Of a stretch of DNA of 64,000 bases, positions 9,470 to 61,920 are shown in pieces. Below the pieces are notes generated by a model, which was not told the DNA's origin, did no database searches, and was given only the letters and a program-made list of their open reading frames with translations. The stretch's first letter is position 1. Each line of letters begins with the position of its first letter. Both the position numbers and the translations under genes were made by a program. This DNA comes from Lepidostoma basale (Eukaryota; Arthropoda; Insecta; Trichoptera; Lepidostomatidae). The stretch spans positions 496,001 to 560,000 of the forward strand of contig JAHDVF020001365.1 of the NCBI GenBank assembly GCA_022606425.2, in the 5' to 3' direction.

Positions 9470-9516
9470 GGTAACACTAACCGGTTTCGCTCCCGCCGGA
9501 GCTTCGTCAGGGTGAG
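9470..9516 (-). ncRNA. Hammerhead-like motif, family hhA (left arm)
   Basis: Minus strand: CTGACGA (9504-9510), one extra A, stem II GCTCC/GGAGC, GAAA with A15.1 followed by CCGGT, a palindromic minimal stem III, and a GTT-type triplet. All conserved core positions of a hammerhead are present. It forms a fold-back with 9546-9584. Confidence 0.65.
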
Positions 9517-9545
9517 AAAGTAAATAGTTTACCCTCTCACCCTCA

Positions 9546-9584
9546 CACTTGAGCTCTGACGGTAGCGAAACCGGTTGGTGTTTC
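9546..9584 (+). ncRNA. Hammerhead-like motif, family hhA (right arm, decayed)
   Basis: Partner arm: GAAACCGGTTGG at 9567-9578 is intact, but the CTGACGA box is damaged by a small deletion. Flanks (AACACTTTATTTGGT and its inverse) pair with the left arm. Confidence 0.5.
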
Positions 9585-9599
9585 CAAATAAAATGGTGT

Positions 9600-9879
9600 T
9601 AATACAAATTACCAAAAGTGTTTTATTATTTTATTTAATAATGTCACACCACAAATTAAGTGCTTCATACGAAAGTTTAAATTAAGGGTAATGAAATGAA
9701 GTTGATTGCATCACATTCCGAGATACTTTGTATAACGAGCCTCACTCGTTGGAACGAGGCGCCATCTAATGCCAAATTCAGACATTACTCCACTTAGTCT
9801 AATTGTTCTAATGTTTCTTAATGTAACAAGGACTTTATCTTACGAGTATTTTAATTTTATTATACTTTCCAGTTCTGAT
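9600..9879. other. No recognisable feature
   Basis: Unclassified AT-rich sequence between the fold-back and a decayed LINE-T. Confidence 0.4.
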
Positions 9880-10080
9880 TCATTTGTGAATCAAGTGAAT
9901 GCAGTGATAATGAATGTGTCGAGAGTAAAATAATAAATGGTTCATTGCAATAGACCGAACATAGATATAATGAAAGAAGAAAAATGATTATGGAAAGAAA
10001 TCTAGCAATGTGAATGGGGCAAGTTATAAAGGAAAACGTAGCACGTTCAAATCAATCAAAAATTTTATGTCCAATCGGTC
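9880..10080 (+). mobile_element. LINE-T, strongly decayed
   Basis: Only scattered similarity to the NKIMKGSLRWFGHMER through KTWHDQINQI region remains. Confidence 0.55.
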
Positions 10081-10089
10081 GATCCTGAC

Positions 10090-10765
10090 ACATTTATCAA
10101 ATCAAATCAACTTATTTACTCAAAAGACATTACAAACAGCATACATGTTTAAGGAATCTATTGAGTACAGGTAAAATATTACATACATTCAACATAATAC
10201 CAAGAACCCATTAGAGATGGTTCGACATTAGGAAGACAAGATGGTAACTAAAGTCGAGAGTATTTGTCCTCTGATCGTACTTTCACTAAAAAGAAAGACG
10301 TCGATCTCCAAGGAGACCGCGTTCAGCAGACAAATTGCTCTTCCCAACAGTTTCACCAGAAGCAGGTTGGTTCTGGCGGCCGGTAGGTAAAACAATTTGT
10401 GCTGTCGCTGTCGGAGATATCTATCGGGGACAAAAATATCAACATCCCCCAGCACGTCCGAGTTCTCGAAATATCCTCTGATTAATCTAAAGAAATGGGT
10501 AATGAGATGCCCATCTCTTCGAAGCTTTAAAAAATTGGTTCCGTGCATTCCCAAAAAAATGCCATAGGAAAGAGCCACGGATAACTACCATACTCCGTCA
10601 TGTAGAGATACCTCAGAAATTTTTCTGAACACACTCCAGCATAACGGAATATCTCACCTCGTGAGGACTCCATATCACAGAACCACTTTCGAGTCTGCTC
10701 CGAACCAAAGCGTTGTATAGGACTCTGAGCACATTGAGATCTCTGAAAACTCTTCCGATCTCTGA
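10090..10765 (-). mobile_element. LINE-J (CR1/jockey-like) 3' portion
   Basis: Reading minus: LRVLYNALVRSRLE and SVIWSPHEVRYSVMLE (the RT thumb region typical of CR1/jockey elements), then GHLITHFFRLIRGYFENS, LFYLPAARTNLLLV and ILSS-stop. The 3' UTR ends in the (ATCAA)n complement of the TTGAT tail at 10095-10112. An open frame covers 10228-10578. Catalytic RT motifs are missing. Confidence 0.85.
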
Positions 10766-10767
10766 AA

Positions 10768-11088
10768 ACTTATCAAGCTTCCTCCGCATTCATACAGCGA
10801 GTCATACGCGCATGTCGATTCTTCCGGCTTCTAACATAACATCCTACTTTTAAAATGTGATTAATTGATCATGCCAAGTTTTCCTCGGTCTCCCACGACT
10901 CCATACTCCATTCACATAGTTAACGTATACTTTCTTAAGCATTATTTCTTTAACCGTACATTTCATATGTCTAAGCGAATGCCGTGCTCCTTTCGTAATT
11001 TTATTCATAATTTTTTCTTCTGTTCTACATTCCTTTCTTATTTTGTCGTACAATGTTTTACTACACATACGTCTAAGGGATCTTATGT
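10768..11088 (-). mobile_element. LINE-T fragment without 3' tail
   Basis: Frame 10850-11068 reads CSKTLYDKIRKECRTEE, NKITKGA, then WSRGRPRKTWHDQ. The 3' end stops before the hairpin end, at the boundary with LINE-J. Confidence 0.8.
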
Positions 11089-11470
11089 CTTCTCCTTTGG
11101 AACGAGGTGGTATTTTTCGCCCCTTAGCGCATGGCCCAAATATGAGACCTTTTTAATTTTCACACTCGACAACAGCTCTCTATTGGCTCTGGCTATCTGT
11201 AGTACGTCTGCATTACTGACCCTATCGGCCCAAGGTATACGGAGCATTCTGCGGTATATCCACATCTCGAACGCTTCCAACCGGTTCATTACATTCACGT
11301 TCAGAGTCCAGGTTTCGCAGCCACATAGTAGAACAGATAGTAGTAGTTCCCCATAGTTATAGCAGAGCAAGGGGGCATATATTATTTTATGCCCTAAATT
11401 GCCGCACGAAGGCCCTTTGAAGTTCTCCTGTATTGAAAGCGATTCGTCTTTTAAATGAGGTTGCAAAAGA
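11089..11470 (-). mobile_element. RTE-H LINE fragment
   Basis: Frame 11083-11466 reads LLCGCETWTLNVNVMNRLEA, FEMWIYRRMLRIPW, ADVLQ, ELLSSVK and VSYLGHALRGEKY. It is a relative of 38635-39307. It joins LINE-T at its 3' side without a tail. Confidence 0.85.
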
Positions 11471-11846
11471 GATAGACCTCTTTGGATGCAATTATGGCGA
11501 ATTCGTGAATACCCTTACGATAAGGGCAGCAAGGAAATAACTGGAATTTATTTATTTATTTATTCAGTAAGGGCAGCATACAGCGATATCAATATATTAA
11601 TTAAGAAACATTCAGAAAAATAATAAATAAAGCCAATTACATGCTACCACAAACACAATTAACAACAACAACAACAACAACAAACCATCACGCCGTTTCC
11701 CCGCAGGGGTAGGCAGAGAGAATGGACCGCCACACTACTCTATCCTGGCAAACCTCTCTAGCTCCCTCCACATTCATACAACGAGTCATACACGCACGTC
11801 GATTCCTACGAATTCTAACATGACCAACCTTTAAAATTTGATTAAT

Positions 11847-12317
11847 TTAGTCATGCCATGTTTTCCTCCGTCTGCCTCGACTTCGTACCCCATTTACATC
11901 ATTAACGTATACTTTATTAACCATTCTTTCTCCATCCATGCGTTCCATATGTCCGAACCAACGCAGCGATCCTTTCATAATTTTGTTCATTATACCTTCT
12001 TCCGCTCTACATTCCTTTCTTATATCAGCATTTGAGATTCTGTCGTATATCGTTCTACCACACATACGTCTTAGGGACCTCATCTCTACCGCATTTATTT
12101 TACTCTCATCCTTCTTCTGCCAGTTCCATGCTTCGCTTCCATACATTAGGGTTGGGACCAGAACTCCATTGTGAACGGCCGTTTTCGCTTTTATTGATAA
12201 ATTCTTGTTTCCAATAACTATTTTTAAAGCTCCATTCACTTTGTTACCCGCACCAACCCTTCTTTCGACGTCACTATCCGTTCGGGCATCTGCTGTGAAC
12301 ATGCTACCTAAATACAC
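11847..12317 (-). pseudogene. LINE-T C-terminal domain
   Basis: Open frame beginning MYLGSMFTADARTDSDVERR. Conserved blocks follow: VPTLMYGSEAWNWQKKDE, MRSLRRMCGRTIYDRIS, LRWFGHMERM and RSRGRRRKTWHD. This is the post-RT region found in RTE-like elements. The reading frame is offset from the RT part because of a deletion at about 12360. Confidence 0.85.
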
Positions 12318-12359
12318 AAATTCCTCACCTGTTCCAAGTTCTCTTCGTTCACACTTATA

Positions 12360-12731
12360 TTACAAACTGTCATTTGCTCTTCCCTTTCGAAAACCATCAC
12401 CTTTGACTTGACATACCTCATACATTCTCGACACCAAGACTTGTAATTCGTCCGCACTATCCGCAACGAGAACGGCATCGTCCGCGTAAAGCAGACAGTT
12501 TACAGACAGATCACTCATCTTAGCACCAGCATTTATACCTTTAAGTTCTTTCATACACTTGTCCATATACAGATTGAACAACCATGGAGACATCACGCAG
12601 CCCTGCTTAACACCCTTCGTGATATCAAACCAAGGCGTGATGTCTCCATTTACCCTAACACTGGCAGTGCTCCCTTCGTAGAGAGAAGCAACCGCCCGTA
12701 TCAGTTTTGTGCTCACTCCGTATTCGGACAA
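12360..12731 (-). pseudogene. LINE-T RT palm with YADD box
   Basis: Contains RT motif B (KGVKQGCVMSPWLFNLYMD) and motif C (LLYADDAVLVAD), so two catalytic aspartates are intact. Upstream it is separated from motif A by a single in-frame TAG where a tryptophan codon is expected. Downstream it shifts frame because about 40 bases present at 23370-23410 are missing. Confidence 0.9.
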
Positions 12732-12737
12732 GATTGA

Positions 12738-15539: not shown

Positions 15540-16075
15540 ACAAGTTATCGGCCAAATAAGTAAGGGAGTTATACAATTGCAATGATAGTATAACCTAGCT
15601 GAAGTAAATCTCAACTAAGTCCTTAACTTAGTTAACAGTTAAAATTACCTTGTTTTTAGCGTTCTGCAAATGGTGGAATGCGCCATGCTAGAATCAAGTT
15701 TCTCCCGTATTTTTACGACCCCGTCTTAGGCGGTGTCGTTAAATTACAAAAATGTTAGTTTAAAGAGCATTTTACAGCGCTCGAGAGTTAAAATCTTGAA
15801 AAGTTATGTCTAATATGTAGCTGTAAAACACGTTGGGGTAGTAAACAGGAGTTAGGAAGTAAGAAAGGGTTTAACAAGTCTCCCTAGGGGTTGCAAAAGT
15901 TGCTGTATATCGCGCGTTAGCAGTAAGGAGACGCATGCAAAAGGAAAGCTTTCGGGAAAGTTAGCACGTGATCATGTGACAGGATATTGCAATGGATTAT
16001 AAATGCAATAATTAATTCTTTAAGTGGTAAAAATAAAATAGTCTTTCTTCTATATTTACCATACTTTGTGTTGTT
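15540..16075. other. No recognisable feature
   Basis: No repeat or open frame of note. Confidence 0.4.
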
Positions 16076-16141
16076 ATGATGTTCTATTTCTCTTCTTCTT
16101 TTTAAATACTTTGTATATACAACACTTTTATTAAAAAATCA

Positions 16142-16190
16142 AATTACATAGACATGTTTCGTTCAACCAGTCCTTCTTCAGTTATACATA
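16142..16190 (-). ncRNA. Hammerhead-like motif, family hhC (left arm)
   Basis: Minus: CTGAAGA (16175-16181), extra A, stem II GGAC..GAAC, GAAAC (16156-16160), ATGTC. Stem II is partly mispaired. Confidence 0.65.
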
Positions 16191-16322
16191 TTATAAAGAT
16201 AAATTTAAAAAATATTATAAAATTGTTTACATGATCCGACAGATGTTATAAAGATTTAATATATAATATCATCTGTCAGATCATGTAAACAATTTTATAA
16301 TATTTTTGAATGTATCTTTATA

Positions 16323-16372
16323 ATATGTATCACTGAAGAAGGACTGGTTGTCCGAAACATCTCTATGTAATT
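16323..16372 (+). ncRNA. Hammerhead-like motif, family hhC (right arm)
   Basis: Plus: CTGAAGA (16333-16339), extra A, stem II GGAC/GTCC, GAAAC (16354-16358). The triplet is mutated from GTC to CTC. Confidence 0.6.
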
Positions 16373-16494
16373 GTATTATTTTATATAAGTGTTGTACGAG
16401 TATGTACAGAGTATATAAAAAAACAAGAAGAGAAATAAAGATATAATGTAATTAAGTAAGTAAATAATATGAATGAAATTTGTTTATAATAATT

Positions 16495-16575
16495 TCTGTA
16501 ACTGAAATATTTCGCCTGTCTAAGGCATAATCATATACATTTATTCCTAGACAGGCGAAATATGTCATTCACATA
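16495..16575. repeat. Fold-back element, family hhG
   Basis: Arms GAAATATTTCGCCTGTCTA and its inverse. Each arm has stem II GCCT/AGGC followed by GAAA and ATGTC on the right arm. The CTGANGA box is TTGATAA-like in this family and is degraded here. Confidence 0.7.
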
Positions 16576-17169
16576 AATTACGAATGTTATAAAACATAAG
16601 ATTTCATTCATATTAGTTATTTAATACGAAGATTTACCTCATTGTTTTAGAAACCATTATGTCGGTGATTTTTTTTAATTGATTTAATAAATTTTTATAA
16701 ATAATATAATAAAATAATAATACACTTTTAGTATTTATATATAAACCACTTTATTTGGTGAGGGTGAGAGAGTAAACTGATATACATTTTTATCATTTTA
16801 AACCAGTTTTCCGATAATCAAATTGCCGTTGTTGTATGTATGACGATGACTAACACCCATTTAAATAATTGGGTCAAAAAGTTCATCGGAACTTGTAAGT
16901 TTTGTAACCGGAATGATTATCCACCCTACCCGTATACGTACGGAGGGGTGATTTCCTGCTACCGCATCAAATATTTATCTCTGCATCTGTCGGCATCGTT
17001 TGAACTTTGCTTGTACATATCTAACTAACTGTTAATTATTCTCTCAACAAGGCGGAGAACGGAATAATGTATACACCCTGATACACACTAAACCATATTG
17101 GAGATAGCTGACAACATTGAACAAATTGAAACATATCATTAATTTTTATGATTATGTTTTTTGATATTA

Positions 17170-20640: not shown

Positions 20641-21690
20641 CGCCTAAATGTTTTCCGTTTGTTATGTCTCATTTGTGTTTTATATACTATATAACCAAAT
20701 GAATAAATTTAAATAAATTTCATTAATATAAACATTCGAATATGATTTACTCTGGAATAAGTCAAGATAATATTCTCGGAAGTGGAAAAACAGGCTTGAG
20801 CTTTTCTCATGGTTATTATAAATGGAAGAACCAAGCTTATTCATATACTTGAAATTTACCCACGTGTATGCAAACATTCGAAAATAATTCTTACGTAACA
20901 ACAATATTTGGAAACAGAGGAGTAAGTCAGAAACCACATTTGCTTGCCTGTGCGAACAAGCTCTGCCTGCGAACTTAACGCGACCACATGTTTGTGTAAC
21001 TCGTACCCATATAATTACTGCGGATAATAAGCGTATATTTAAGTAACTCACGCATTGAAAGTCAGAATTGAGAAACAGACTTATTCCAATAATAATTAAA
21101 ACACCAATGCAATCAACCATTATTTCGTAATCAAGTATATATTGGTCATTATTTTTTTAATTTAAGTTTCAACCTTCTAAAAGTTAGGACAATTGGAAAC
21201 CCACCTCACAGGACGATCACCTCTTTGAAGAACACACCACATAGGTTTACAGCAGAGAAAAATTAGAAGAATAAGACACACACAACAAGATTTTTTTTAC
21301 AATCTTTATATCATTTGGAAACCAAATGTGTAGATTTCATTTAAAAAAATGTTAATGAATCTAATGATTTTACTGAAATCTCTTGATGGAAGTTCATTTT
21401 AAATAATAATTAATATGTTTTAAAAATTTGTTATAAATTCTATATTATGTTATAAATTCAGTAATAATAATAACAAAAGTACCATTTTTTCAAACGTTAT
21501 ACTAGATAAATTATGTCAGCTATAATAAAATTTTAAATCCATTGTATTGAATATGAATCTTCTTGAATACCTGTAATAACAATATTTAAATTTAGTATTT
21601 TACATAAATATTTGAAGATTATTTTTGTATAGAATCATGTTTACCATCCCTGATTTGTATATACGAGTATATAAAGGACTCGGTTTACAA
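20641..21690. other. No recognisable feature
   Basis: AT-rich; the frame at 20680-21120 (minus) has no family signature and no codon bias I can argue for. Confidence 0.4.
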
Positions 21691-21695
21691 TAGTA

Positions 21696-21745
21696 TCACC
21701 AGTCTGTCGATACCAGGGAGCCTTTCGAAACCGGTCGCTGTCGAA
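21696..21745 (+). ncRNA. Hammerhead-like motif, family hhB
   Basis: CTGTCGA (21704-21710; core A6 replaced by T), extra T, stem II ACCAGG../..CCTTTC, GAAAC (21727-21731), stem III ACCGGT and triplet GTC (21734-21736). Stem I pairs CAGT with GCTG (one wobble). The same CTGTCGA variant occurs at 22450-22497. Confidence 0.6.
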
Positions 21746-21904
21746 ATAAAGACAAAAGTAGATGTACTCGTAGTTAAAAAACATTGTTTTATTTAGTTTT
21801 TAGTAAATGAAACTTGTATTTTTGGAGAGTCCCAACCTGTTTTGGCAGTGTAATTTTTTTAACCTAAAGCTTTTTAATATAAAGTTTTCCATTAGGAACG
21901 CAAT

Positions 21905-22100: not shown

Positions 22101-22294
22101 ATTTTTAGAGGCACTCGGTTCCCAGGAACTCTATATTACTCAAATGATTTAACTGAAATCTCTTAATGGAAGTTCATTTTAAACAATAATTAAATTAAAC
22201 GATTTATTAATTCTTGACCAATGATGTAAAACTCCATATTAAATAATTAATACGAATGAAAACGTCAGTTTTCTAGAAGTTTTATTAAATTTTA

Positions 22295-22385
22295 TGCGAA
22301 TGACATGTTACGCCCTTCTGAGGCATTATCAAATGTCTGTCACATTTGATAATGCCTTAGAAGGGCGAAATATGTCAATCCCATA
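22295..22385. repeat. Fold-back element, family hhG, nearly perfect hairpin
   Basis: Arms of about 38 bases (22302-22337 and 22342-22382). Each reads TTGATAA, extra T, stem II GCC..GGC, GTAAC or GAAAT, then ATGTC. Flanked by CATAAAATATAATAAAAC and its inverse. Confidence 0.8.
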
Positions 22386-22449
22386 AAATATAATAAAACT
22401 TCTAAAAAAGATGTTTCTTTTAATAACTTCTTCCACATTTGTCTTTATT

Positions 22450-22497
22450 TCGACAGCAACCGGTTTCACCAGACTCGCTGGCATCGACAGACTGGTC
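22450..22497 (-). ncRNA. Hammerhead-like motif, family hhB (left arm)
   Basis: Minus: CTGTCGA (22484-22490), extra T, stem II GCCAG/CTGGT, GAAAC (22463-22467), ACCGGTT, then GCTG, which pairs with CAGT before the core (stem I). Confidence 0.65.
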
Positions 22498-22535
22498 TGA
22501 ACACCAGCGAGACTGGCGAAACCGGTAAATACAAA
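22494..22535 (+). ncRNA. Hammerhead-like motif, family hhB (right arm)
   Basis: CTGAACA, stem II CCAG/CTGG, CGAAACCGGTAAA. The core has two changes. It forms a compact inverted pair with the previous entry. Confidence 0.5.
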
Positions 22536-22604
22536 TGTGGAAGCAGTTATAAAAATGAACAACGTTTTATTTAATTATTATCTATTTAACTTTTTAGTCA
22601 GAAT

Positions 22605-28744: not shown

Positions 28745-29790
28745 GAAGGATTTAATTTCCTTACTTGAGTTCGAACCGTCAATTTTCCACCATTTTTATA
28801 AATATTTAAGACCAACAATATTCAGTCAGATTTAATTGACGTGTCTGATTCCGAAAGGGATAAAAATTATAATAGATATATTTTCTATACACCTTAATTT
28901 TCATTTCGTTTTCCTTCTATCCTAATAAAACAATGGACTAAGCTTTACAAAGCATAATAACACTTCAACGCAATAGTAGACCAAGCCACAAAAAAGATGT
29001 ATTTATTATTTTTTCGGCCAAAAACGGATCTACAAATTAACTTATCTTTTTTACCAAGAATCTTTCTATACAATTAGTATTTGTTGCAAAGTTACCGTAA
29101 CACAAAGAGATTCAATTTGATAATTTCTAAAATGCGCCATTACTCAAATCTATGGTGGATAGGGTTAGTCCACTTTTTCTTTGACTGCCTCAAATAATAA
29201 TAAAATATCTAGAAAACAGAACTTTCATAAAAATTCAATGTAAAAAAACATCCGCACTGAAACATTTTTAATTTATGAATTATATACAAACAGACTATAT
29301 ACTAGAGGGAAGATTGAATTTTTACGAAATGTTTAAATACAATTATATTATGAAGCCTATATTTATTTTATTCAAGAGTTTTATATACATTTTTATCTTG
29401 TAAAAGTATTCAGTTTCTAAAGTAATTACGTAAAAAAAAACATTCATTTTTTTTTTAAAATAGAACCGCTATCGAATTACTAATGTAATTTGTATTCGTG
29501 GAGATTATGTTTCTGTTTCTAAGGCCATTAGTCGAAAGTCACGAAAATTCATTTAAAACGTGCGATCTAAAAAATATACCAAAAATGTTTTTTGTATGAA
29601 ACTATTACCGTATTACTTGTAGATACATAGATTTTTATGATCATTCACATCCCGTGATTATAAGTGGTTTATGTCAAACCCAAGGGGTCGATTTCAACTT
29701 GCAAGGGGTCAACGAAAACTTCCAGAAAGCAGTGAAACAAATCCGTGATGACGAATCTTTTTATGAAATTAAACACTGTTTATTCCACTT
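28745..29790. other. No recognisable feature
   Basis: AT-rich 1-kb stretch. The short frame 29654-29851 has no known signature. Confidence 0.45.
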
Positions 29791-29794
29791 TAGA

Positions 29795-29840
29795 ATTAAT
29801 TTTTCTCGACATGTTTCAAAGGTTTTACATCACCCCATGG
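29795..29840 (-). ncRNA. Hammerhead-like motif, family hhF (decayed)
   Basis: Minus: GGTGATGTAAAACC, TTTGAAACATGTCGAGAAAAA. GAAAC, ATGTC and GAGAA match the arms at 38281-38378. Confidence 0.45.
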
Positions 29841-29975
29841 TAAATGTATAAAATTTTCAAAAAAGATTGAGGAAAATAATCTCTTTTGTGAAAAAAACAG
29901 TGTTTTAGTTCATAAAAAATATATATTAATAGATAAAATAAAAATATTTTCTAAAATATTTATTATATTGATGGG

Positions 29976-30055
29976 AATAACAAGTTTCGTCTAACTAAGG
30001 CATTATCAAATCTTGATATTTGATAATGCCCCAGAATAAACATGTCATTTCTTTT
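29976..30055. repeat. Fold-back element, family hhG
   Basis: TTTGATAATGCC on each arm, with GACGAAACTTGTTATTCC (left, minus) and a decayed AAACATGTCATTTC (right). Confidence 0.65.
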
Positions 30056-30159
30056 AATATAATAAATTCTACATAGTAGATATTTTCATTCGTATTAATT
30101 ATTAAAGTTTAACATCTTATTCAAGAAATAAACAATAAATTTATATTGCAAATTTAAGT

Positions 30160-36079: not shown

Positions 36080-36126
36080 TTTCACCCGATGATGCTGACA
36101 TCAGTTGGCGAAACAGCTGTCGCCAA
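36080..36126 (+). ncRNA. Hammerhead-like motif, family hhD
   Basis: CCGATGA (36086-36092), extra T, stem II GCTGAC/GTTGGC, GAAAC (36110-36114), stem III ACAGCTGT, triplet GTC (36119-36121). Followed by AATTGATACCAT, as at the copy 36686-36732. Confidence 0.65.
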
Positions 36127-36688: not shown

Positions 36689-36732
36689 CATCTGATGATG
36701 CTGACATCAGTTGACGAAACAGTTGTCGCGAA
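36686..36732 (+). ncRNA. Hammerhead-like motif, family hhD, canonical core
   Basis: CTGATGA (36692-36698), extra T, stem II with GTTGAC, GAAAC (36716-36720), AGTTGTC, GCG. All invariant core bases of the hammerhead are present. Confidence 0.7.
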
Positions 36733-37930: not shown

Positions 37931-38019
37931 TGTTGCACATTATTGTTACATACATACTTACATACTTAGGAAATTAAAAATCGCTTTGTTTAATCCACCA
38001 TTTATTAAAAAATATTAAA

Positions 38020-38062
38020 AAACATGACATATTTTGGAGGATACCTCCATCTTCAGGAGTAA
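38020..38062 (-). ncRNA. Hammerhead-like motif, family hhE (left arm)
   Basis: Minus: CTGAAGA (38050-38056), extra T, stem II GGAGG/CCTCC, then AAAAT instead of GAAAC, ATGTC. Confidence 0.5.
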
Positions 38063-38118
38063 AAATATAAAAAAAAAATTGAATTATTGCATTGTTTTTA
38101 TTAGTTTTTATTATATTA

Positions 38119-38160
38119 TTACACCTGAAGATGGTGGTATCCTCCGAAACATGTTTTTTT
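38119..38160 (+). ncRNA. Hammerhead-like motif, family hhE (right arm)
   Basis: CTGAAGA (38125-38131), extra T, stem II GGTGG/CCTCC with one mismatch, GAAAC (38146-38150), ATGTT. Together the two arms define an intact ancestral core. Confidence 0.65.
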
Positions 38161-38280
38161 TTCTTCATTATAAATAGTGGATCAAACAAAGTTATTTTCA
38201 ATTTTCTAGGTATATTACTATGGAATTCCATGACGAAACATTTATGAATGAAAACACTTTTTTTCCGCTTTTGGGTATAT

Positions 38281-38326
38281 TTTTCTCGACATGTTTCGAA
38301 GGCATTACACCTTCATCGGAGTTTTT
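38281..38326 (-). ncRNA. Hammerhead-like motif, family hhF (left arm)
   Basis: Minus: CCGATGA (38313-38319), stem II AGG..CCT (three bases lost relative to the right arm), GAAAC (38293-38297), ATGTC, GAGAA. Confidence 0.55.
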
Positions 38327-38329
38327 TAT

Positions 38330-38378
38330 CGTTCTCCCGATGATGAAGGTGTTTAGCTTTCGTAACATGTCTAGAAAA
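38330..38378 (+). ncRNA. Hammerhead-like motif, family hhF (right arm)
   Basis: CCGATGA (38337-38343), extra T, stem II GAAGG/CTTTC, GTAAC, ATGTC (triplet GTC 38369-38371). TTCTC before the core pairs with GAGAA after the left arm's triplet, giving the ancestral stem I. Confidence 0.55.
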
Positions 38379-38634
38379 ATAAACTCAAAAGTGAAAAAAA
38401 ATAGTGTTTTTTATTCTTAAAAAAATTGCCATTGAGGATATTGAATTATGGTTTATCATACAAAGTTATGGCTTCTTAAAAAATGATATAAAACCCCATA
38501 TTTAATAATGTAGGTATATGAATTAAAACGTCTGTTTTATTTAAGTTTTATTATATTTATTATAGATGCCTTATCATTTACATAAAATATTTTTAAAATC
38601 TTGTAGGAAAAAAATATATACGAGAATTAAAGGT

Positions 38635-42469: not shown

Positions 42470-42525
42470 GTTAGTTTTGTATATACAAAGTGTTAAAAAG
42501 AAAAAGACAAATAAATATTAATTAA
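42470..42525 (+). repeat. hhC terminal arm, solo
   Basis: TTTTGTATATACAAAGTGTT followed by AAAAAGAAAAAGACAAATAAA, the outer end of the hhC fold-backs. Confidence 0.6.
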
Positions 42526-42572
42526 CTGTTAAATTATAAAACGCCGTCACTTTTTAAATTATTATTTTTAGT

Positions 42573-42620
42573 TTCGCGACAGCTGTTTCGTCAACCTATG
42601 TTAATATCATCAGATGTTAC
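42573..42620 (-). ncRNA. Hammerhead-like motif, family hhD, canonical core (left arm)
   Basis: Minus: CTGATGA (42607-42613), extra T, stem II ATTAAC/GTTGAC, GAAAC (42585-42589), stem III ACAGCTGT, triplet GTC, GCG. Confidence 0.7.
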
Positions 42621-43312
42621 ATATAGGTTGACGAAACTTCTTCTTCTTCTTCTTTGCTAGCCTTCTTCCCTCCACTGCTGGATATAGGCCTCTTCCAATT
42701 TCTTCCACTCGTCTCTATCGTGCCCCCTCTGTATCCAAGATTTTCCAACCCTTTTGATAATATTATCGGTCCATCTCATTGGTGGCCTTCCGACACTTCG
42801 CCTATTTTCCCATGGTCTCCAACTGAGTATCCTGGGTGCCCATCTGTTGCCACCCTGTCTAGCCAATCTAGCGTGTCCAGCCCATTGCCATTTCAATTTT
42901 GACACTCGGTCCATGACGTAAGCAACCCTGGTGCGGCGTCTGATTTCTTCGTTCCTTATGCGGTCTCGCAAGCTCACACCAAGTATCTGTCTTTCCATGG
43001 ACCTCTGTGTACACTTGAGCCTGTGGACACTTTTTGCTGTAAGAGTTGTCGTCTCTAGTCCGTATGTCATCATGGGCAGTATACACATATCGTAGACCTT
43101 TCTTTTGAGACAAACCGGTATTTCAACATTTTAAAAGACATGTCTCAGTTTACCAAAGGCAGCCCAACCCAGTCCAACTCTTCGAGGTAGCTCTACAGTT
43201 TGATTCTCTTTTCCGTGTCTGATTTTATGACCGAGATACACATACTCTTTCACACTTTCTATCTTATTTTCCTCTATAGTAATTTTTTTTATTTGACGAA
43301 ACAGCGGTTGCA
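42621..43312 (+). repeat. hhD right arm, split by an RTE
   Basis: ATATAGGTTGACGAAAC ends at 42637 and resumes as TTGACGAAACAGCGGTTGC at 43293. The break lies inside stem III. Confidence 0.8.
42638..43292 (-). mobile_element. RTE-D LINE 3' portion inserted in a ribozyme arm
   Basis: Minus: frame 43131-43343 has ENKIESVKEYVYLGHKIRHG. Frame 42657-43088 has MTYGLETTTLTAKSVHR, QRSMERQILGVSLRDRIRNE, LKWQWAGH, WRPWENRRSVGRPPMRW, LEEAYIQQWREEG-stop. (GAA)n tail at 42638-42652. The 10-bp target duplication TTGACGAAAC is at 42628-42637 and 43293-43302. Confidence 0.92.
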
Positions 43313-43429
43313 AAATATAAATTAACAAAAATTTTGATACCACAAAAACGGCGTTTTATAATTTAACAGTTAATAATGTTGAAGTATCATAGTGTTTCGG
43401 CCAAAACAATCAACCAAATATGAATTAAA

Positions 43430-44205: not shown

Positions 44206-44345
44206 TGTTATTTCCTGGCAAACTAAATCCTCTCCTCAACAATTACAAATATGTTTCGGGACAGAAAGGGCCTCCATCAGTTTAGTTAAAAATATAGGTA
44301 ATTAACACACTTGTAAATTTGTATTTGTACCACTTAATTCTTTTC

Positions 44346-44390
44346 ATCAACCAACCGGTTTCACTGTCGTCGGAGCTTCGTCAGTTACAA
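44346..44390 (-). ncRNA. Hammerhead-like motif, family hhA (left arm)
   Basis: Minus: CTGACGA (44378-44384), extra A, GCTCC.., GAAAC, CCGGTTGG. The 3' strand of stem II is mutated. Confidence 0.55.
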
Positions 44391-44394
44391 AAGA

Positions 44395-44830
44395 CTCTGA
44401 AACAATAATAAGACACAAAACACACAAAAGATACAAAATACACCAAAGTAACAAAAGACACAAAAGACATAAATACACAAAAACACAAAAGACACAAAAG
44501 ACACAAAAGACACAAAAGACACAAAAGACACAAAAGACACAAAATACACAAAATACACAAAAGACACAAAAGACACAAAATACACAAAATACACAAAAGC
44601 ACAAAATACACAAAAGACACAAAAGAGACAAAATACACAAAAGACACAAAAGACACAAAAGACACAAAAGACACAAAAGACACAAAAGACACAAAAGACA
44701 CAAAAGACACAAAAGACACAAAAGACACAAAAGACACAAAAGACACAAAAGACACAAAAGACACAAAAGACACAAAAGACACAAAAGACACTAAAGACAC
44801 AAAATACACAAAAGACACAAAAGACACTGA
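44395..44830. repeat. 9-bp satellite ACACAAAAG
   Basis: About 48 units of ACACAAAAG with a few ACACAAAAT and one ACTAAAG variants. Since 9 is a multiple of 3, long frames of LCLLC- and SFVSFV-type appear on the minus strand; they are artefacts. The array fills the loop between the two hhA arms. Confidence 0.95.
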
Positions 44831-44867
44831 AAGAATAAAAAGAGGTAAAAGTTACAGCCTTTTGTAA

Positions 44868-44912
44868 ACCAAATGAAGCTCCGGCGGGAGCGAAACCGGT
44901 TGGTTGTTGAAA
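44868..44912 (+). ncRNA. Hammerhead-like motif, family hhA (right arm)
   Basis: ATGAAGCTCC/GGGAGC, GAAACCGGTTGG (44892-44903). Stem II is intact, but the CTGACGA box is lost to AAATGA. Confidence 0.55.
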
Positions 44913-45061
44913 AGTATAAAATGGTGTAAATACAAATTGACAATTGTATTAATTATTATATTTACTAATGCCACACCACAAAATAAGTGCTTACGAAAGT
45001 ATGCCAAATTATGAAAACAAAAATATCTGATATAATTTTTTATATATATAGTGTGGTTCCA

Positions 45062-45182
45062 CTTGTGTTAAACGTCGACCAGTTTCGGCAGCTTGCTGAC
45101 ATCTTATGGTATCTCACAGAAAGCTGTCGAAGCCGGCCGACGTAAAACACAAGTGGAAGCACACTAAATATGTTTTAATTCT
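45062..45182. repeat. Fold-back element, family hhH
   Basis: Arms TTCCACTTGTGTTAAACGTCG and inverse, with GCTGCCGAAACTGGTC (minus, left) and GCTGTCGAAGCCGGCC (plus, right). The left arm has C..AAGA, T, GTCAGC/GCTGCC and GAAAC in hammerhead order; weak. Confidence 0.55.
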
Positions 45183-45215: not shown

Positions 45216-45262
45216 AAACACCTGATTATGTCAACATAGGTTGACGAAACAGCTGTCGCGAA
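45216..45262 (+). ncRNA. Hammerhead-like motif, family hhD
   Basis: CTGATTA (45222-45228; one core change), extra T, stem II GTCAAC/GTTGAC perfect, GAAAC (45246-45250), ACAGCTGT, GTC, GCG. Preceded by (AAT)n. Confidence 0.65.
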
Positions 45263-49386: not shown

Positions 49387-49955
49387 TAGCGGACCCGACA
49401 GACGTTGTCCTGCCCGAACGTTGGCTTTCTTGCTATTAGCTGGTTCAGCAAACGTTTTTACGATATTCGTATTTTTGATAAATTATATACTAAATTATAT
49501 ATACTTTATACACACGCAAAGTGGCAATGGGCTGGCCATATCTGTCAGAGAACCGACGGCCGATGGGGAAGACGATTCTGAAGTGGAGACCAAGCACAGG
49601 ATTCCGCAGAGTTGGACGTCCCCCTGCCCGCTGGACCGACGATCTGAAGAGGATTGCTAGACCTGGATGGATGGGAGCGGCAATGGATAGGGGGCGGTGG
49701 CGTGCTTTGGGAGAGGCCTACATTTAGAAGTGGATGACAGACGGCTGATGATGATGACACGCAAATGTGATACGTGTCATACATGGAAGGAACTTCCCAG
49801 ATGGTTTTAATAGTTACCTGTCGGATCCAATTGTGAATCTAAACCATCCACCAGCCCACTCAAACACACACAAACAATTTCGTCAAAATTGGTCCAGCCG
49901 TTTAGGAAGAGTTGAACATCATACGCCCGCACGGAAGAAATATATTTTAAACTGT
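49387..49955 (+). repeat. ACTAGCGGACCCG repeat, interrupted
   Basis: Starts ACTAGCGGACCCGACAGACG and ends with a stretch containing AATTGGTCCAGCCGTTTAGG. Interrupted by RTE-F at 49521-49756. A second copy lies inverted at 63300-63532. This repeat type is widespread in insect genomes; its mobilisation class is not clear to me. Confidence 0.75.
49521..49756 (+). mobile_element. RTE-F LINE 3' end with (TGA)n tail
   Basis: VAMGWPYLSENRRPMGKTIL, KWRPSTGFRRVGRPPARWTD, DLKRIARPGWMGAAMDRGRW, RALGEAYI, stop, then TGATGATGATG. The 9-bp target duplication ACACGCAAA is at 49512-49520 and 49757-49765. Confidence 0.92.
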
Positions 49956-50106
49956 TAATGAAAAAACTTTATTTTTTGTATCACAATTGTATTTTATTTT
50001 ATATATATTTAATTATATCAAATAAATTATTCAAATTGACACAGGAACAAAAAATACACATAAATATTCCAAAAATCACGAATATTTTACATTTGATATA
50101 TTATTG

Positions 50107-50153
50107 TAACACCTGATGATGTCAACATTGGTTGAAGAAACAGCTGTCGCGTA
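50107..50153 (+). ncRNA. Hammerhead-like motif, family hhD, canonical core
   Basis: CTGATGA (50113-50119), extra T, stem II GTCAAC/GTTGAA, GAAAC (50137-50141), ACAGCTGT, GTC (50146-50148), GCG. ACAC before the core pairs with GCGT after the triplet except one A-C mismatch. Confidence 0.7.
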
Positions 50154-50394
50154 AAATAAAATAAATTGTGAAATATAAAACCAAGTTATTTAATTAAATA
50201 GTTTAAAATGTTAAGGTATCATAGTGTTTCGGCCAAAACAATGGACTATTTAAAGTAATAATTTAAAATGTCTCATCAGTGAATGAAGTGAGTGCTTCAT
50301 GTTAAAAAAAAAAATTTTAATGTCAATATATAATTCATACCGGAACAATGAAAAAAATCATATCAAAACATACAATACAAGAATTATCTAACCA

Positions 50395-53170: not shown

Positions 53171-53284
53171 AATCTGACGTTTTAATTTGTATTAATTACT
53201 AGTTCCTTGTGTTATCACATTCATCCGATGAACAAGAGATAACCCTTTTACTTCAATGCAAAAGATCTTGCAAATATTGATAAG

Positions 53285-53845
53285 ATTTTTTGAAAGATCA
53301 TTTATAAGATCTCTTGAAAAGTCTCTTGAAAAATCTCTTGAGAGATCTCTTGAAAGATCTCATGACAGGTCTCTTGAAAGATCTCTTAAAAGATCTCTTG
53401 AAAGATTTCTTGAAAGATCTATCGAAAGATCTCTTTAAAGATTTCTTGAAAGATTGATTAAAAGATCTTTTGAAAGATTTCTTGAAAGATCTCTTGAAAG
53501 ATCTCTTGAAAGATCTCTTGAAAGATCTCTTGAAGGATCTCTTGATAGATCTCTTGAAAGATCTCTTAAAAGATCTCTTAAAAGATCTCTTGGAAGATCT
53601 CTTGAAAGATCGCTTGAAAGATCTCTTGAAAGATCTCTTGAAAGATCTCTTGAAAGATCTCTTGAAAGATCTCTTGAAAGATCTTTTGAAAGATCTCTTG
53701 AAAGATCTCTTGAAAGATCTCTTGAAAGATCTCTTGAAAGATCTCTTGAAAGATCTCTTGAAAGATCTCTTGAAAGATCTCTTGAAAGATCTCTTGAAAG
53801 ATCTCTTGAAAGATCTCTTGAAAGATCTCTTGAAAGAACTCTTGA
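53285..53845. repeat. 12-bp satellite AAAGATCTCTTG
   Basis: About 46 units, most identical in the right half and more variable in the left (53285-53600). Because 12 is a multiple of 3, frames on both strands stay open (SLER, DLLK, SFKR and DLSR repeats); none is a gene. Confidence 0.95.
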
Positions 53846-53859
53846 ATCTATACATTGAG

Positions 53860-56045: not shown

Positions 56046-56214
56046 ATACGTAACATAACAGTGTTTCAAATTTAAATGTTTATTAATTAAATAAGATAAA
56101 TATTAAAGATAAACAAACTCGTAAAATAATAATAATACAATAATATAATAAAATAAAAAGTATTGTGAAAATACCGTGTTTTCAAAAAGTTATTAAAATA
56201 AATCAATGTTTTTT

Positions 56215-56340
56215 ATTGACTTGTTTCACTTGTTGTCTTTATTTTGGCATCGACAAACTGGACTTGCACCAGTCTAGTGATGCCAGCGAGCCTGGCGAAA
56301 CAGAACGCTGTCAAAATAAGAAGAATAAGTGGAAGTTGTG
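56215..56340. repeat. Fold-back element, family hhB
   Basis: TTGTCTTTATTTTGGCATCG on the left, and on the right a motif at 56266-56312 with CTAGTGA, extra T, stem II GCCAG..CTGGC, GAAAC (56297-56301), then CAGAACGCTGTC. The left motif has lost GAAAC. Confidence 0.6.
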
Positions 56341-56404
56341 TAGCCCATTGCCACTTTAATTAAGCTGTAGTGTCGATGATGTCGGCAATTTTATTTTTAT
56401 ATAT

Positions 56405-58473: not shown

Positions 58474-58590
58474 AGTTTCAATGTGCCATCTATGAAGATT
58501 TTGATTATATATGTTAATCTTATTAAGATCACTATATATAATCTACATACTAACCCCATCTATGGAGATAAATATGAGTATATCTAATAA
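58474..58590 (+). repeat. MITE-P-related repeat, right part
   Basis: TGTGCCATCTATGAAGATTT and TATATAATCTACATACTAAC, as at 63790-63870. Confidence 0.8.
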
Positions 58591-59035
58591 AAACGAAATA
58601 TGAGTATCCACATTTTGACTTTGCTTGACTTCAAATATTTTAATTGAGACTCCTTGTAAGTAACCACCCTCTCCAGTTACAACCGTTTCACTTACTGGGA
58701 ACATAGAACACAAACAGAACAGGGAAACAACACGTCCTCCGGGAACAGAAAGTTATTCCTGTTCCAGGCGGCTCAAAATGATAAATTGGGTTTTAAATTC
58801 GGACGGAATAATAGCGGACTGTTAATAAAGTGTAATGAATGAGTCGTGTTGGTAAACTTTACTAATTTTGGTATGAAAATAATTACTATATCCGTTTATT
58901 TTTGTATACGCACAAATCTTCCCTAAAAACGTGTATTTACATCATTCAAGGGACGATTTTCATTTTACTGTAGCACAAATGATATAATGCTAAGCCTTTA
59001 TTTCAAATAAAACATTGTAACACTGTAAAAGCCTA
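58591..59035. other. No recognisable feature
   Basis: Partly GC-richer (58640-58800); no repeat match. Confidence 0.35.
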
Positions 59036-59122
59036 TCCAAAAAAATCTAAAATGGCAGTACACAACAGGGTTCTTGAACCAATCCTATTGAAGGAAAGCA
59101 TGGAACTAGCATAAGAATGACG

Positions 59123-59385
59123 AACGACCTTCGTGGCCGATTGGTAAGTGCGTTGACTGCCACCCCGGAGATTCCGGGTTTGATTCCCGGCGAGGGCGGT
59201 GTGATTATCACACAGTATTTGGTCTGGTGCAGAATTCACGTGACAATAAAATGGCAATAGATTATCTACCTATCACATGTCGCGAGAATCACTATGATAG
59301 CTATAATACCCTTTACATCGATTTGGCTCATGCTGTCATGATGTAAAGAGCGATTCAACATAAAAAAATAAAAATAAAAATGCTG
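59123..59385 (+). mobile_element. tRNA-derived SINE (SINE-t), fullest copy
   Basis: A box TGGCCGATTGG (59134-59144), B box GGTTTGATTCC (59177-59187), body with GGTCTGGTGCAGAATTCACG, 3' hairpin ATCGATTTGGCT..TGATGTAA, A-rich tail. Not an intact tRNA. Confidence 0.87.
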
Positions 59386-59663
59386 TAGAAATAAAATCTC
59401 TTAGATGAATGTGTAGAAAATCTGTATATAATATAGTGTCAAATGTAAGTGTTATAAACATAATAATGAAACAAAGATCATTAAGATGGTTTGAACTCGT
59501 GGAAGGAATGAATGAAGAAGGAATAGTAAAAAAGTATATGTTAACGATGTAAACGGAACCAGAAATAGAGGAAGACTGAGGAATACGTGGCACGATCAAA
59601 TAAATGAAATATAATTTGTCTTTTTATTTTTTATATACTTTGTATATACAACACTATTAAAAT

Positions 59664-59712
59664 TACATATCAGACATGTTTCGGACAACCACTCCTTCTT
59701 CAGTGATACATA
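59664..59712 (-). ncRNA. Hammerhead-like motif, family hhC (left arm), best in window
   Basis: Minus: stem I TATGTATCA (59704-59712), CTGAAGA (59697-59703), extra A, stem II GGA/TCC, GAAAC (59678-59682), stem III ACATGT, GTC (59673-59675), stem I TGATATGTA (59664-59672). The two stem I strands pair over 9 bp including two wobbles. Confidence 0.8.
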
Positions 59713-59786
59713 TTTAAAATATTATAAAATCTTTATAACATCTGTCAAAATTGATCATATTTGTAAACAATTTTATAATAATTAAA

Positions 59787-59835
59787 TATGTATCACTGAA
59801 GAAGGACTGGTTTTCCGAAACTTGTCTGATATGTA
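59787..59835 (+). ncRNA. Hammerhead-like motif, family hhC (right arm)
   Basis: Stem I TATGTATCA (59787-59795), CTGAAGA (59796-59802), extra A, stem II GGA/TCC, GAAAC (59817-59821), ACTTGT, GTC (59824-59826), stem I TGATATGTA (59827-59835). Confidence 0.78.
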
Positions 59836-60261
59836 ATTTTCATATTGTTGTATATACAAAGTATAGAGAAAAATAAAAAGACAAATAAAACATCAATAAC
59901 ACCAAGTATGGCGAACATAGAAGAAATAAAATATTGATTGTCGGCCACGTGAGGAGTCGAAGATATCGACGTGCGTGCATGACACGATGTATGAATGTAA
60001 AGAAATCGAGTAAAGTATGTCGGAATTGTAAACGTCTTAAGCTTCATTACAGCGTATTATTGATTCATAGCATTATTGAAAAAATGCGATTCACCTCTGG
60101 GATAAAGAAAACATTCTCTAGATCCGTTCCCGACTATATTACCAACAGATTTGCACACATTTTGAACATAAAAAAATATGTCATAATTATATATGATGAA
60201 TAATCATGTCAACAAAGCATCCAAACTAATAAAGATCGAAAGAATATAATTATAAACTGTT

Positions 60262-60630
60262 AAATAACAAAGAGCCATAGAAAGAGCCATGTTAGGAATA
60301 ATCCTAAGAGACAGAGTCAGAAACGATACGGTGAGAGAAAGAACAAGGGTCACTGACATCATCCACCGGGTGGCGTCTCTAAAATGGCAATGGGCAGGTC
60401 ACGTAGCCAGAAGCTCGGATGAAAAGTGGACAAGAAGACTGCTGACTTGGAGACCGTGGACGGCAAAGAGAAGTGCAGGGCGACCGCAACTACGGTGGAA
60501 GGATGACCTGAACAGACACGTCGGAATAACCTGGATGCAGTCTGCACAGGACAGAGTGACATGGAAGCGAATGGAGGAGGCCTTTGTCCAGGAGTGGACG
60601 GGAATAGGCTGAGGAAGAAGAAGAAGAATA
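60262..60630 (+). mobile_element. RTE-A LINE 3' end, best-preserved tail
   Basis: Frame 60289-60612 is open: MLGIILRDRVRNDTVRERTR, VTDIIHRVASLKWQWAGHVA, KWTRRLLTWRPWTAKRSAGR, PQLRWKDDLNRHVGITWMQS, WKRMEEAFVQEWTGIG-stop, (GAA)n. It lies inside an hhD outer arm (AACTGTTAAAT..). Confidence 0.92.
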
Positions 60631-60675
60631 ATGAATTCAATAACATTGTTTTATGTATCACAATTGTATTTTATT

Positions 60676-60724
60676 TTACGCGACAGCTGCTTCGTCAACC
60701 TATGTTGACATCATCAGGTGTTAC
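60676..60724 (-). ncRNA. Hammerhead-like motif, family hhD (left arm)
   Basis: Minus: CTGATGA (60711-60717), extra T, stem II GTCAAC/GTTGAC perfect, GAAGC, AGCTGTC (GTC 60682-60684), GCG. Confidence 0.68.
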
Positions 60725-60749
60725 AATAATATATCAAAATTTTAAATAA

Positions 60750-60782
60750 AAACATAGGTTGACGAAACAGCTGTTGCGTAAA
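60750..60782 (+). ncRNA. hhD 3' half (right arm)
   Basis: ACATAGGTTGACGAAACAGC then TGTTGCG; CTGATGA half lost. Confidence 0.5.
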
Positions 60783-60879
60783 ATAAAATTCAATTGTGAT
60801 ACATAAAACAAAGTCATTTAATTTAACAGTTTAAAATGTTAAGGTATTACAGTGTTTCGGCCAAAACAATGGACTATTT

Positions 60880-61130
60880 AATATAATTATAATTTATTCT
60901 ATTTTCAAATCAAGTAAATCATCCTTATTTTTCTGACATTTATGATCTCGGCACAACTATCCCGGTAACACCCATCTCGGCTCTGATCTCAGATGGCCCA
61001 AAGAGATTAGAGAGTTGAAGTGTGTTCCGTTGCCAAGTTTTTCACGCTGACTATAGCGATGGTATTGGTACAAAACGGAGCATATCCAAATTTAGAATTT
61101 ATGGATATAATATCATAATAACTGTCGTAA
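60880..61130. other. No recognisable feature
   Basis: Contains a less AT-rich patch at 60950-61080. Confidence 0.35.
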
Positions 61131-61134
61131 ACAT

Positions 61135-61920
61135 TAATAATTTAATAATATGTATGAAAAAACGATAGTTTTCAAGGAGTTTTATTATAATGTTTATGTA
61201 TGACATGTTTCGTATATGTAGGTTCAGATATTGGAAAGTGTTTCTTGGAACTCGTTAAGAAATATTATGACAATGCTTACATAGTTAGGGAATACTAAAT
61301 GATATTATATAAATCAATTACTGTTAACATTTTCCACGCTTAATAGTAAACTGACCGATTATGGTTAAGGTCATAATTGAGATAATATTAGACAGAGGTT
61401 TGTGTTAACGCTATCCATCTATTTTTCACAATGTTAACGCTATCCATTCGTACGTACAATAATCGTTCACAATGTTAACGCTATCCATTCGTACGTGTTT
61501 TTCGACTGTTTTTGTTAAAACACCAACTCATGTCGGATTGAGCAAAACTTGCTTTTTTGAGTTAAGCCAGTGTTCTATTAAGCGTACGATTTATTGAACT
61601 TATTTATGATTTATATAATATCATTAAGTATTCCCGAACTATGTAAGTATTGTCATAAAATTTCTTAACGAGTTCCAAGAAACACTTTCCAATATTTCTG
61701 GACGTACACAAATAATAATTTGTTAAAAATGTATAAAGTCACTTCAATTTTCGTTAATCACCATATTCTGCTCCATTTGCTAGTGTATATAAACTGCAAC
61801 GAGTTGAAGTTTCGTCACATTTGATAATGCCTTAGAAGGGCGAAACATGTCATACATAAACATTATAATAAAACTCCTTGAAAACTATCGTTTTTTCATA
61901 CATATTAATAATTTAATATG
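61135..61920. repeat. Nested double fold-back element, family hhG
   Basis: Outer arms 61140-61212 and 61842-61915 are near-perfect inverses. Inner arms 61227-61315 and 61608-61700 are a second, unrelated inverse pair. The centre has three direct copies of GTTAACGCTATCCAT (61404, 61433, 61474). A hhG core (TTGATAA, T, GCC..GGC, GAAAC, ATGTC) is at 61818-61855. Confidence 0.85.

Follow-up and report, generated by a model that had tools for sequence, protein, structure and literature searches.

Hammerhead-bearing fold-backs of Lepidostoma basale as probable Penelope-like insertions, usually with one long and one short end

What are the fold-back repeats that recur in a 64,000-nt stretch of the Lepidostoma basale (Trichoptera) genome, and why do families with different stem sequences share one ribozyme order? 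The stretch, referred to here as the window, comprises positions 496,001 to 560,000 of contig JAHDVF020001365.1 (assembly GCA_022606425.2). A preliminary description treated the families as unrelated fold-backs diversified from one lineage of ribozyme-bearing mobile elements. The families are not unrelated and belong to one superfamily; the single lineage is supported, and its sequences indicate that it is likely the GIY-YIG clade of Penelope-like elements (PLEs), which is directly evident for three families and likely for the others. The fold-back is a known form of Penelope insertion, a pair of inverted pseudo-long terminal repeats (pLTRs), and not a type of element. In the reading preferred here, to which a probability of roughly 0.8 is assigned, each fold-back represents a single inserted GIY-YIG-bearing PLE of which two inverted pLTRs remain, and it would have been formed by two-sided target-primed reverse transcription. 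The data directly support the PLE identity of several families, a bias in orientation, a bias toward one long and one short end, and the lack of separate long and short lineages.

The GIY-YIG search of the window's own genome yields 62 matches (150 scored of 542 candidates). Nearby GIY-YIG matches on opposite strands form five pairs among the places listed, all with the minus copy on the left and the plus copy on the right, as judged by eye. The 3.6-kb locus L257 contains a 758-codon stop-to-stop frame with matches to RVT_1 (1.4e-13) and GIY-YIG (6.6e-5), which looks 5'-truncated and whose reverse transcriptase (RT) is assigned by homology and conserved motifs. Among 7,995 candidates scored, 1,343 homologs of this frame are found; most of the best 120 contain PF00078 with PF26215, some contain PF01541, and the 11 rows of these 120 that name an organism are all from insects (Phthorimaea, Euphydryas, Schistocerca and Diabrotica). 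CCGG2 cores in inverted orientation are present at the two ends of L257, inside 456-nt arms that are 99% complementary, and the Penelope RT flanked by the same cores that the preliminary description had proposed to look for is thereby found. The two copies in L257 belong to different end classes, and one is approximately six times as long as the other. L257 sits in a TA microsatellite on both sides (1-195 and 3400-3601). Another locus, L258, consists of two 5'-truncated PLE copies arranged head-to-head with 805-nt arms. In the window, a 5'-truncated Penelope-like 3' end at 21442..21811 (plus strand, CCGG2 core 21704-21736) aligns with the 3' end of L257 over 375 nt at 81% identity, and the CCGG2 copies of the window therefore belong to the L257 element family.

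The sequence downstream of ten further GIY-YIG loci, chosen by hand from the 62, was also examined. By eye, three of the ten are not PLEs (two UvrC-like, one SLX1-like). All seven PLE loci have a core downstream in sense, including one that is decayed and one that is possibly a separate insertion: CATG1 in L261 (by profile only), CCGG2 in L263, CATG2 in L265, L266 and L267 (family assigned by eye), a decayed CATG2 in L264, and in L262 an AGCT pair that lies approximately 1 kb away and could have been inserted separately. Compared with the endonuclease region of L257, that of one PLE locus has 96% identity and those of the six others have 40-47%. A regular-expression search for PLE RT and endonuclease motifs in the first 335 kb has no match, no PLE frame is recognised by eye upstream of the cores, and no PLE protein is found in viral contigs. 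By eye, the top GIY-YIG match (L259 on C102) and another of 621 codons (L260 on C729) resemble bacterial UvrC, so that both assembly contigs may come from a bacterial symbiont or contaminant.

The arrangement of the copies is strongly biased. Same-family neighbours no more than 700 bp apart, in the window and the sampled loci, comprise 65 minus-plus, 13 plus-minus, 9 minus-minus and 4 plus-plus pairs, and 9 minus-plus pairs and 1 plus-minus pair occur among 100 listed of the 13,847 genome matches to the core pattern defined below. Because the minus-plus orientation prevails, the 5' ends usually meet centrally and the tails point outward. Locus L228 departs from this head-to-head layout: at 4855-5130, three cores on one strand are spaced by 90-140 bp and form a small tandem array.

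The outer ends of the arms fall into two classes approximately 35-45 nt apart in the AGCT, CCGG1, CATG1 and CATG4 families, with some intermediate ends, while the CCGG2 and CATG3 profiles give a single end class. The tail consensus of these four families, as well as the tail of L257, contains an ATG, which by eye is near the tail start except in CATG1, in agreement with the published description of pLTR and tail as extending into the reading frame (PMC3846280). At the right ends of some AGCT copies (L238, L228), a different terminal sequence, approximately GTCGTCTCCC..GGGTAGGCAGAAA, is seen by eye and is perhaps an alternative AGCT tail.

When the two ends of a pair are compared, one is usually long and the other short. 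Among 48 distinct divergent pairs located away from sequence ends, 42 could be scored, and 35 of these have one long and one short end, compared with 21 expected under independence (P 7e-6). The proportion is 28 of 33 in pairs no more than 160 bp apart and 20 of 24 in pairs with both arms near full length. All 12 scored pairs in the window, where the idea arose, follow the rule, as do 23 of the 30 outside it (binomial probability approximately 0.003). L257 also follows it, with a bare left end and a right end extended by approximately 44 nt.

The lopsided ends suggest that both sides of the chromosome cut are filled at once. After a staggered cut, each of the two 3' ends would serve as primer on its own copy of the element RNA; reverse transcription would begin at a proximal site for one complementary DNA (cDNA) and approximately 40 nt further in for the other. 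The two cDNAs would run to or towards the 5' ends of the RNAs and be joined there, which would yield a head-to-head pair with outward tails, one long and one short. The palindromic stem III of the ribozyme, being loop-free, would pair only between two RNAs, and the pair of arms would be formed anew at each locus. Two-sided priming, the choice of start site and the new formation at each locus are what we infer. The purified PLE protein of Anolis cuts and extends both DNA strands and begins reverse transcription at two positions inside the RNA that delimit the “tail” (PMC11167929). Different starts on the two sides could be imposed by a dimer, either of the protein or of the RNA.

Snap-back self-priming is an unlikely origin of the pairs, although it retains some weight. 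Here one cDNA (possibly made on an antisense template) would fold at a palindrome near the 5' end of the pLTR and prime its own second strand, as put forward for rotifer Penelope from the palindromes at head-to-head junctions (PMC3846280); many fold-back centres in the present set are likewise near-palindromic with small loops. However, an arm copied from its partner should, by reasoning, repeat the outer end and the flank, whereas the 35 pairs have unlike ends and the copies of L257 differ in length and end class. Direct repeats are also enriched at the flanks, which argues against snap-back and supports insertion as a unit: a score of at least 9 is reached at 13 of 41 loci compared with 7.6% of mismatched flanks, and a score of at least 10 at 8 of 41 compared with 2.8%. 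In the window, the CCGG1 fold-back at 9417..9680 has a degenerate direct repeat (TTAAATTTAGGGT / TTAAATTAAGGGT), and the CATG4 fold-back at 61135..61952 has a 12-nt direct repeat (ATTAATAATTTA).

Quite improbable is a heritable non-autonomous fold-back whose transcripts span both arms and which is copied whole, starting at its long-tail end, an account that would explain both the constant long/short layout and the flanking direct repeats. The kinship of the arms argues against it. In the shared arm part of 22 long/short loci (AGCT 3, CCGG1 6, CATG1 6, CATG4 7), the identity of the two arms within a locus is 0.873 for AGCT, 0.815 for CCGG1, 0.827 for CATG1 and 0.809 for CATG4, whereas it is 0.66-0.76 between loci, with no clear difference among long-long (0.70-0.76), short-short (0.66-0.74) and long-short (0.69-0.75) comparisons. 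Judged by these identities, the long and short arms are not separate lineages, and the difference between them most simply arises at insertion and not by inheritance, unless gene conversion homogenises the arms; such conversion within a heritable unit could mimic the pattern.

Retrozymes, short non-autonomous type I hammerhead elements that spread as small circular RNAs, are a very improbable source. The fold-backs are short ribozyme-bearing repeats in an animal genome, and the triple in L228 has the same-strand order that this source would favour; but only 13 of 91 neighbour pairs lie on the same strand, and the cores adjoin RT and GIY-YIG frames.

The ribozyme order itself was examined in detail. 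Full cores number 21 in the window, in seven families (AGCT 6, CCGG1 3, CCGG2 2, CATG1 4, CATG2 2, CATG3 1 and CATG4 3) spanning 9479-61851; they are matches to a GAAAC-palindrome pattern picked by eye, and the list is hence not unbiased. Six family profiles give 49 window matches, counting halves, tails and a few overlaps between families, so that the earlier estimate of about 30 instances is reasonable, and the shared order across families with different stems holds in the full cores. The elements CUGANGA ... GAA A15.1 ... U16.1 H17 are present in the 21 window cores, with some positions broken, and in 60 sampled cores. The broken positions in the window include the box (CAAATGA once), GAA (AAA or GTA in some) and the palindrome (e.g., ACATCT and ACTTGT). 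A strict descriptor (box with at most one mismatch, stem of at least 4 bp, GAA and a perfect palindrome of 6-8 nt) recovers four window cores, all with one extra base, compared with 0.017 expected at that offset from 300 first-order random sequences. By itself, the box shows weak enrichment in the window (37 compared with 26.3 expected; 2 of 100 shuffles reach 37).

In all 21 window cores, exactly one base separates the 7-nt box from stem II, as the preliminary description had noted for every family; this base is T in AGCT, CCGG2, CATG2, CATG3 and CATG4 and A in CCGG1 and CATG1. The register was followed through the 769-Mb genome with a core pattern consisting of the box CTGANGA, 12-24 free bases and GAAACATGTC (with the ACATGTC palindrome). 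This pattern has 13,847 matches, compared with 1 for the reversed control pattern, and the proposed excess over controls is thus evident. Among the first 100 matches listed of the 13,847, which represent 52 distinct inserts and are not independent, a stem II of at least 4 bp is found at offsets 0/1/2/3 in 0/75/2/0 cases, with approximately 3.7 each after shuffling. A palindrome-free pattern of fixed spacing (box, 18 free bases, GAAACC) gives 106 genome matches and 88 for its reversed control, a small excess by count that implies mostly chance matches; nevertheless, in the 100 matches listed, a stem II of 4 bp or more is found at offsets 0/1/2/3 in 0/19/2/1 cases, with approximately 2.1 after shuffling.

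A descriptor allowing several offsets (0-2 or 0-3) was run on the window and 38 genome loci and gives 60 cores, 54 from the window and the 28 loci fetched as matches and 6 from 50 kb of arbitrary positions. The longest stem has one extra base in 60 of 60 cores, although in two of them a shorter stem is scored at offset 2 as well, and the classical register with no base between box and stem II is never the best. The extra base is T in 39 cores, A in 20 and G in 1. The copies are related by descent, one pair of loci (L233/L234) looks duplicated, and the counts are not independent events. The later locus L264 has offset 2 in its decayed core, and an antisense match at offset 0 in L266, from a relaxed scan of the GIY-YIG loci, is taken as chance. 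As background only, viral contigs provide at least 220 chance placements of box, GAA and palindrome, from 218 loci of three looser patterns (for one pattern, part of its matches); the best stem is at least 5 bp in 4, two of them identical in sequence, and none is at offset 1. One exact core pattern has 0 matches in viral contigs.

A9, the extra base and the first base of stem II read ATG in 38 of 60 cores and AAG in 18 of 60. A start codon of the element at this place, as reported for the Anolis element PAc, is weakened because the frame that follows soon closes in most families by eye, and because an ATG occurs near the start of the long tail in AGCT, CCGG1, CATG4 and L257. Additionally, L219 (2783) and L248 (2055) have a 19-nt stem II region, a 4-nt palindrome (ACGT) and a possible reading frame after it, a ribozyme family not seen in the window.

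Stem II covaries. In eight family or subfamily representatives, each the best-paired copy, 32 of 32 pairs are formed, whereas swapping the arms gives a mean of 17.5 and a maximum of 26; over all 21 window cores, 72 of the 84 pairs at the first four positions are standard. In 15 distinct AGCT cores selected regardless of stem pairing, 94.7% of cells pair, and sliding lowers this value to 15-48%. The covariation score is 0.233, compared with 0.153 after shuffling, and is reached by 1 of 500 shuffles, and U-A, C-G and G-C pairs are all seen at one place of the stem. Pairs changed on both sides (2 compared with 1.5) and further pair types (8 compared with 7.5) are not above the shuffles in these cores. 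Stem I, tested as a pooled excess of pairing, has a mean of 4.56 of its 8 first positions paired in 36 cores, compared with 3.26 after shuffling (maximum 3.83 in 500 shuffles). It is strong in some CATG3 and CATG1 copies; for example, in the minus copy at 59611..59927, it has nine consecutive pairs by eye, two of them G-U. The compensatory changes proposed earlier for both stems are thus seen in stem II, whereas stem I is weak in several families. A displaced stem I in AGCT, with pairing approximately 20 nt beyond the cut on its downstream side, is visible by eye in a few copies and is not kept in others.

The proposed stem III consists of the loop-free self-complementary palindromes ACCGGT, ACATGT and ACAGCTGT. 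A perfect palindrome ends 36 of the 60 cores and is missing in 24, so that a palindromic stem III does not describe every core; the AGCT palindrome is nearly invariant, with little covariation as a result. Intact arms are predicted to carry a ribozyme, a minimal variant of the type I hammerhead in which one additional base separates A9 from stem II; one or two nucleotides are allowed at this place (PMC10085705). That the repeats are ordinary DNA fold-backs or miniature inverted-repeat transposable elements, hammerhead-like by chance or through shared ancestry without ribozyme constraint, is hardly credible: many inverted repeats are present in the window, some cores are broken and two of five covariation measures are not above shuffles, but stem II differs among families yet pairs in each at exactly one offset, and the cores are linked to RT and GIY-YIG frames.

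What the ribozyme does during insertion was considered from the ends of the copies. Only 5 of 244 profile matches start within 3 nt of the cut site, and 122 reach the profile start. Cleaved templates are therefore disfavoured, and the copied templates appear mostly uncleaved, in line with the Anolis PLE, whose hammerhead does not cleave without protein and whose ribozyme mutants leave in vitro insertion unchanged (PMC11167929). A tentative and rather doubtful extension of two-sided priming is that a dimeric hammerhead pairs two template RNAs: stem III would hold the RNAs together, the paired ribonucleoprotein would load one RNA on each side of the cut, and the asymmetry of the dimer would give one proximal and one distal start. 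If so, the ribozyme fold would be kept for template pairing, and cleavage would be secondary or later.

Several points weigh against two-sided insertion of a ribozyme-bearing PLE. The thresholds of the end classes were fixed after the histograms had been seen, six of the 48 pairs are unscorable, and four of the 42 scored pairs are long-long and three short-short (one long-long pair, L221, looks misaligned by eye). Only 18 of 44 arms have their own partner as best match, a proportion above chance that falls short of a clean pairing, and direct flank repeats are clear in only about a third of the loci. In the part of the Anolis study covered here, no difference between strands is reported for the start sites (PMC11167929), so the Anolis system does not predict the long/short bias. 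No RT or endonuclease frame is seen beside CATG3, CATG4 or CCGG1 cores in the loci examined. As for the ribozyme, stem I is poorly paired in several families (3-5 of 8 positions in AGCT), and 28 of the 38 genome loci were chosen because they match the core pattern. The Rfam hammerhead families have 0 window matches at the gathering score, and none of the 25 window matches to Rfam at E up to 10 is a hammerhead.

The copies in the window are distributed as follows. In the CCGG1 fold-back at 9417..9680, the short minus arm has a full core (9479-9510) and the tailed long plus arm a half core near 9545-9576. A second CCGG1 fold-back at 44292..45002 has a short minus arm (core 44353-44384) and a long plus arm (core 44870-44901), and its centre, 44385-44869, is a long ACACAAAAG-type tandem repeat. 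CCGG2 fold-backs are located at 22392..22584 (minus core 22458-22490, plus half core) and, decayed and found by profile, at 56184..56376. The CCGG3 fold-back at 45044..45171 has decayed cores, ACTGGT and GCCGGC by eye. Of the CATG1 fold-backs, that at 16044..16439 has a long minus arm (core 16151-16181) and a short plus arm (core 16333-16363), and that at 59611..59927 has a short minus arm (core 59673-59703) and a long plus arm (core 59796-59826). The CATG2 fold-back spans 37953..38222, with cores at 38026-38056 (minus) and 38125-38155 (plus). CATG3 fold-backs lie at 29755..29919, where the cores are decayed (profile), and at 38235..38423, with a plus core at 38337-38371 and a shortened minus core.

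CATG4 fold-backs are present at 16457..16657 (short minus arm, long plus arm), 22203..22421 (long minus arm, core 22302-22332; short plus arm, core 22346-22376), 29946..30133 (long plus arm; the end of the left arm cannot be classified by profile) and 61135..61952 (short minus arm; long plus arm, core 61821-61851). The AGCT family is represented by single plus-strand cores at 36086..36121 and 36692..36727 and by a plus-strand core with a short tail at 45222..45257. A short-tail minus copy at 42519..42613 (core 42578-42613) was scored as a pair with a long-tail, 5'-truncated plus copy 690 bp away at 43293..43414. Additionally, an AGCT pair at 49943..50250 has a short partial minus arm and a long plus arm (core 50113-50148), and an AGCT fold-back at 60632..60879 has a short minus arm (core 60682-60717) and a long plus arm that is 5'-truncated within stem II. 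Elsewhere in the window, a long imperfect hairpin at 26217-26396 matches the miRNA family MIR162_2 at 43.8 bits (gathering score 103) and is probably an inverted repeat of repeated DNA, and a repeat array at 53259-53846 has a period of approximately 12 bp, is approximately 67% self-complementary and leaves several frames open.

Minimal type I hammerheads of PLEs, cleaving as dimers, have reportedly been described by Cervera and De la Pena in 2014 and by Lunse et al. in 2017, and the extra base between box and stem II may already have been described in the latter. Minimal dimer-type hammerheads in PLEs are known in any case (PMC7761336, PMC6155905), and the present cores resemble them in their type I order, a reduced or missing helix III, their association with PLE pLTRs and a dimer-compatible form; compared with them by secondary descriptions, one base separates box and stem II in 60 of 60 cores here. 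Hammerheads with a palindromic loop III, in Aedes aegypti and others, have been proposed to dimerise (PMC3088659). As in these, a self-complementary stem or loop III permits a dimer, but in L. basale the palindrome is the entire stem III, mostly 6-8 nt long, loop-free and present in several families. Metazoan retrozymes, as published, consist of short tandem repeats bearing canonical type I motifs (PMC7229834); the type I hammerhead in short genomic repeats is shared, whereas the copies here form head-to-head pairs and not tandems and are linked to an RT and endonuclease frame.

In rotifer Penelope, the inverted pLTRs are mostly head-to-head, one carries a 31-bp tail, target-site duplications of 8-10 bp are frequent, and self-priming has been proposed (PMC3846280). 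The elements described here likewise resemble GIY-YIG PLEs, including the Anolis Poseidon element PAc, in having RT and GIY-YIG in one frame and a mostly head-to-head pair of inverted pLTRs with a tail of 30-40 nt on one (PMC3846280, PMC11167929). They also resemble PAc in the hammerhead motif at the junction of pLTR and open reading frame (PMC11167929). Target-site duplications of GIY-YIG PLEs are short; here, direct repeats are enriched and clear in a minority. Unlike described GIY-YIG PLEs, most copies examined here are short pairs of pLTRs only. PLEs, their inverted ends, the tail and minimal dimer-type hammerheads were thus already known, and the quantitative one-long-one-short regularity appears to be new: in the part of the PLE literature covered, the tail is treated as optional and its occurrence is given no count (PMC3846280, PMC11167929), and no tally of such a rule is found, whereas it holds here in 35 of 42 pairs.

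In the passages covered, little is said to be known about how PLEs move (PMC11167929), the function of their hammerheads is described as a mystery (PMC7761336), and for their inverted ends an explanation is only proposed (PMC3846280). With 13,847 matches to one core pattern, the genome of L. basale is a very rich source of insertion footprints. Since there is no sign of separate lineages of long and short arms, the one-long-one-short rule places a quantitative constraint on models and helps to separate two-sided priming from snap-back and from copying of a unit, and a role for the dimeric ribozyme becomes testable with purified PLE protein.

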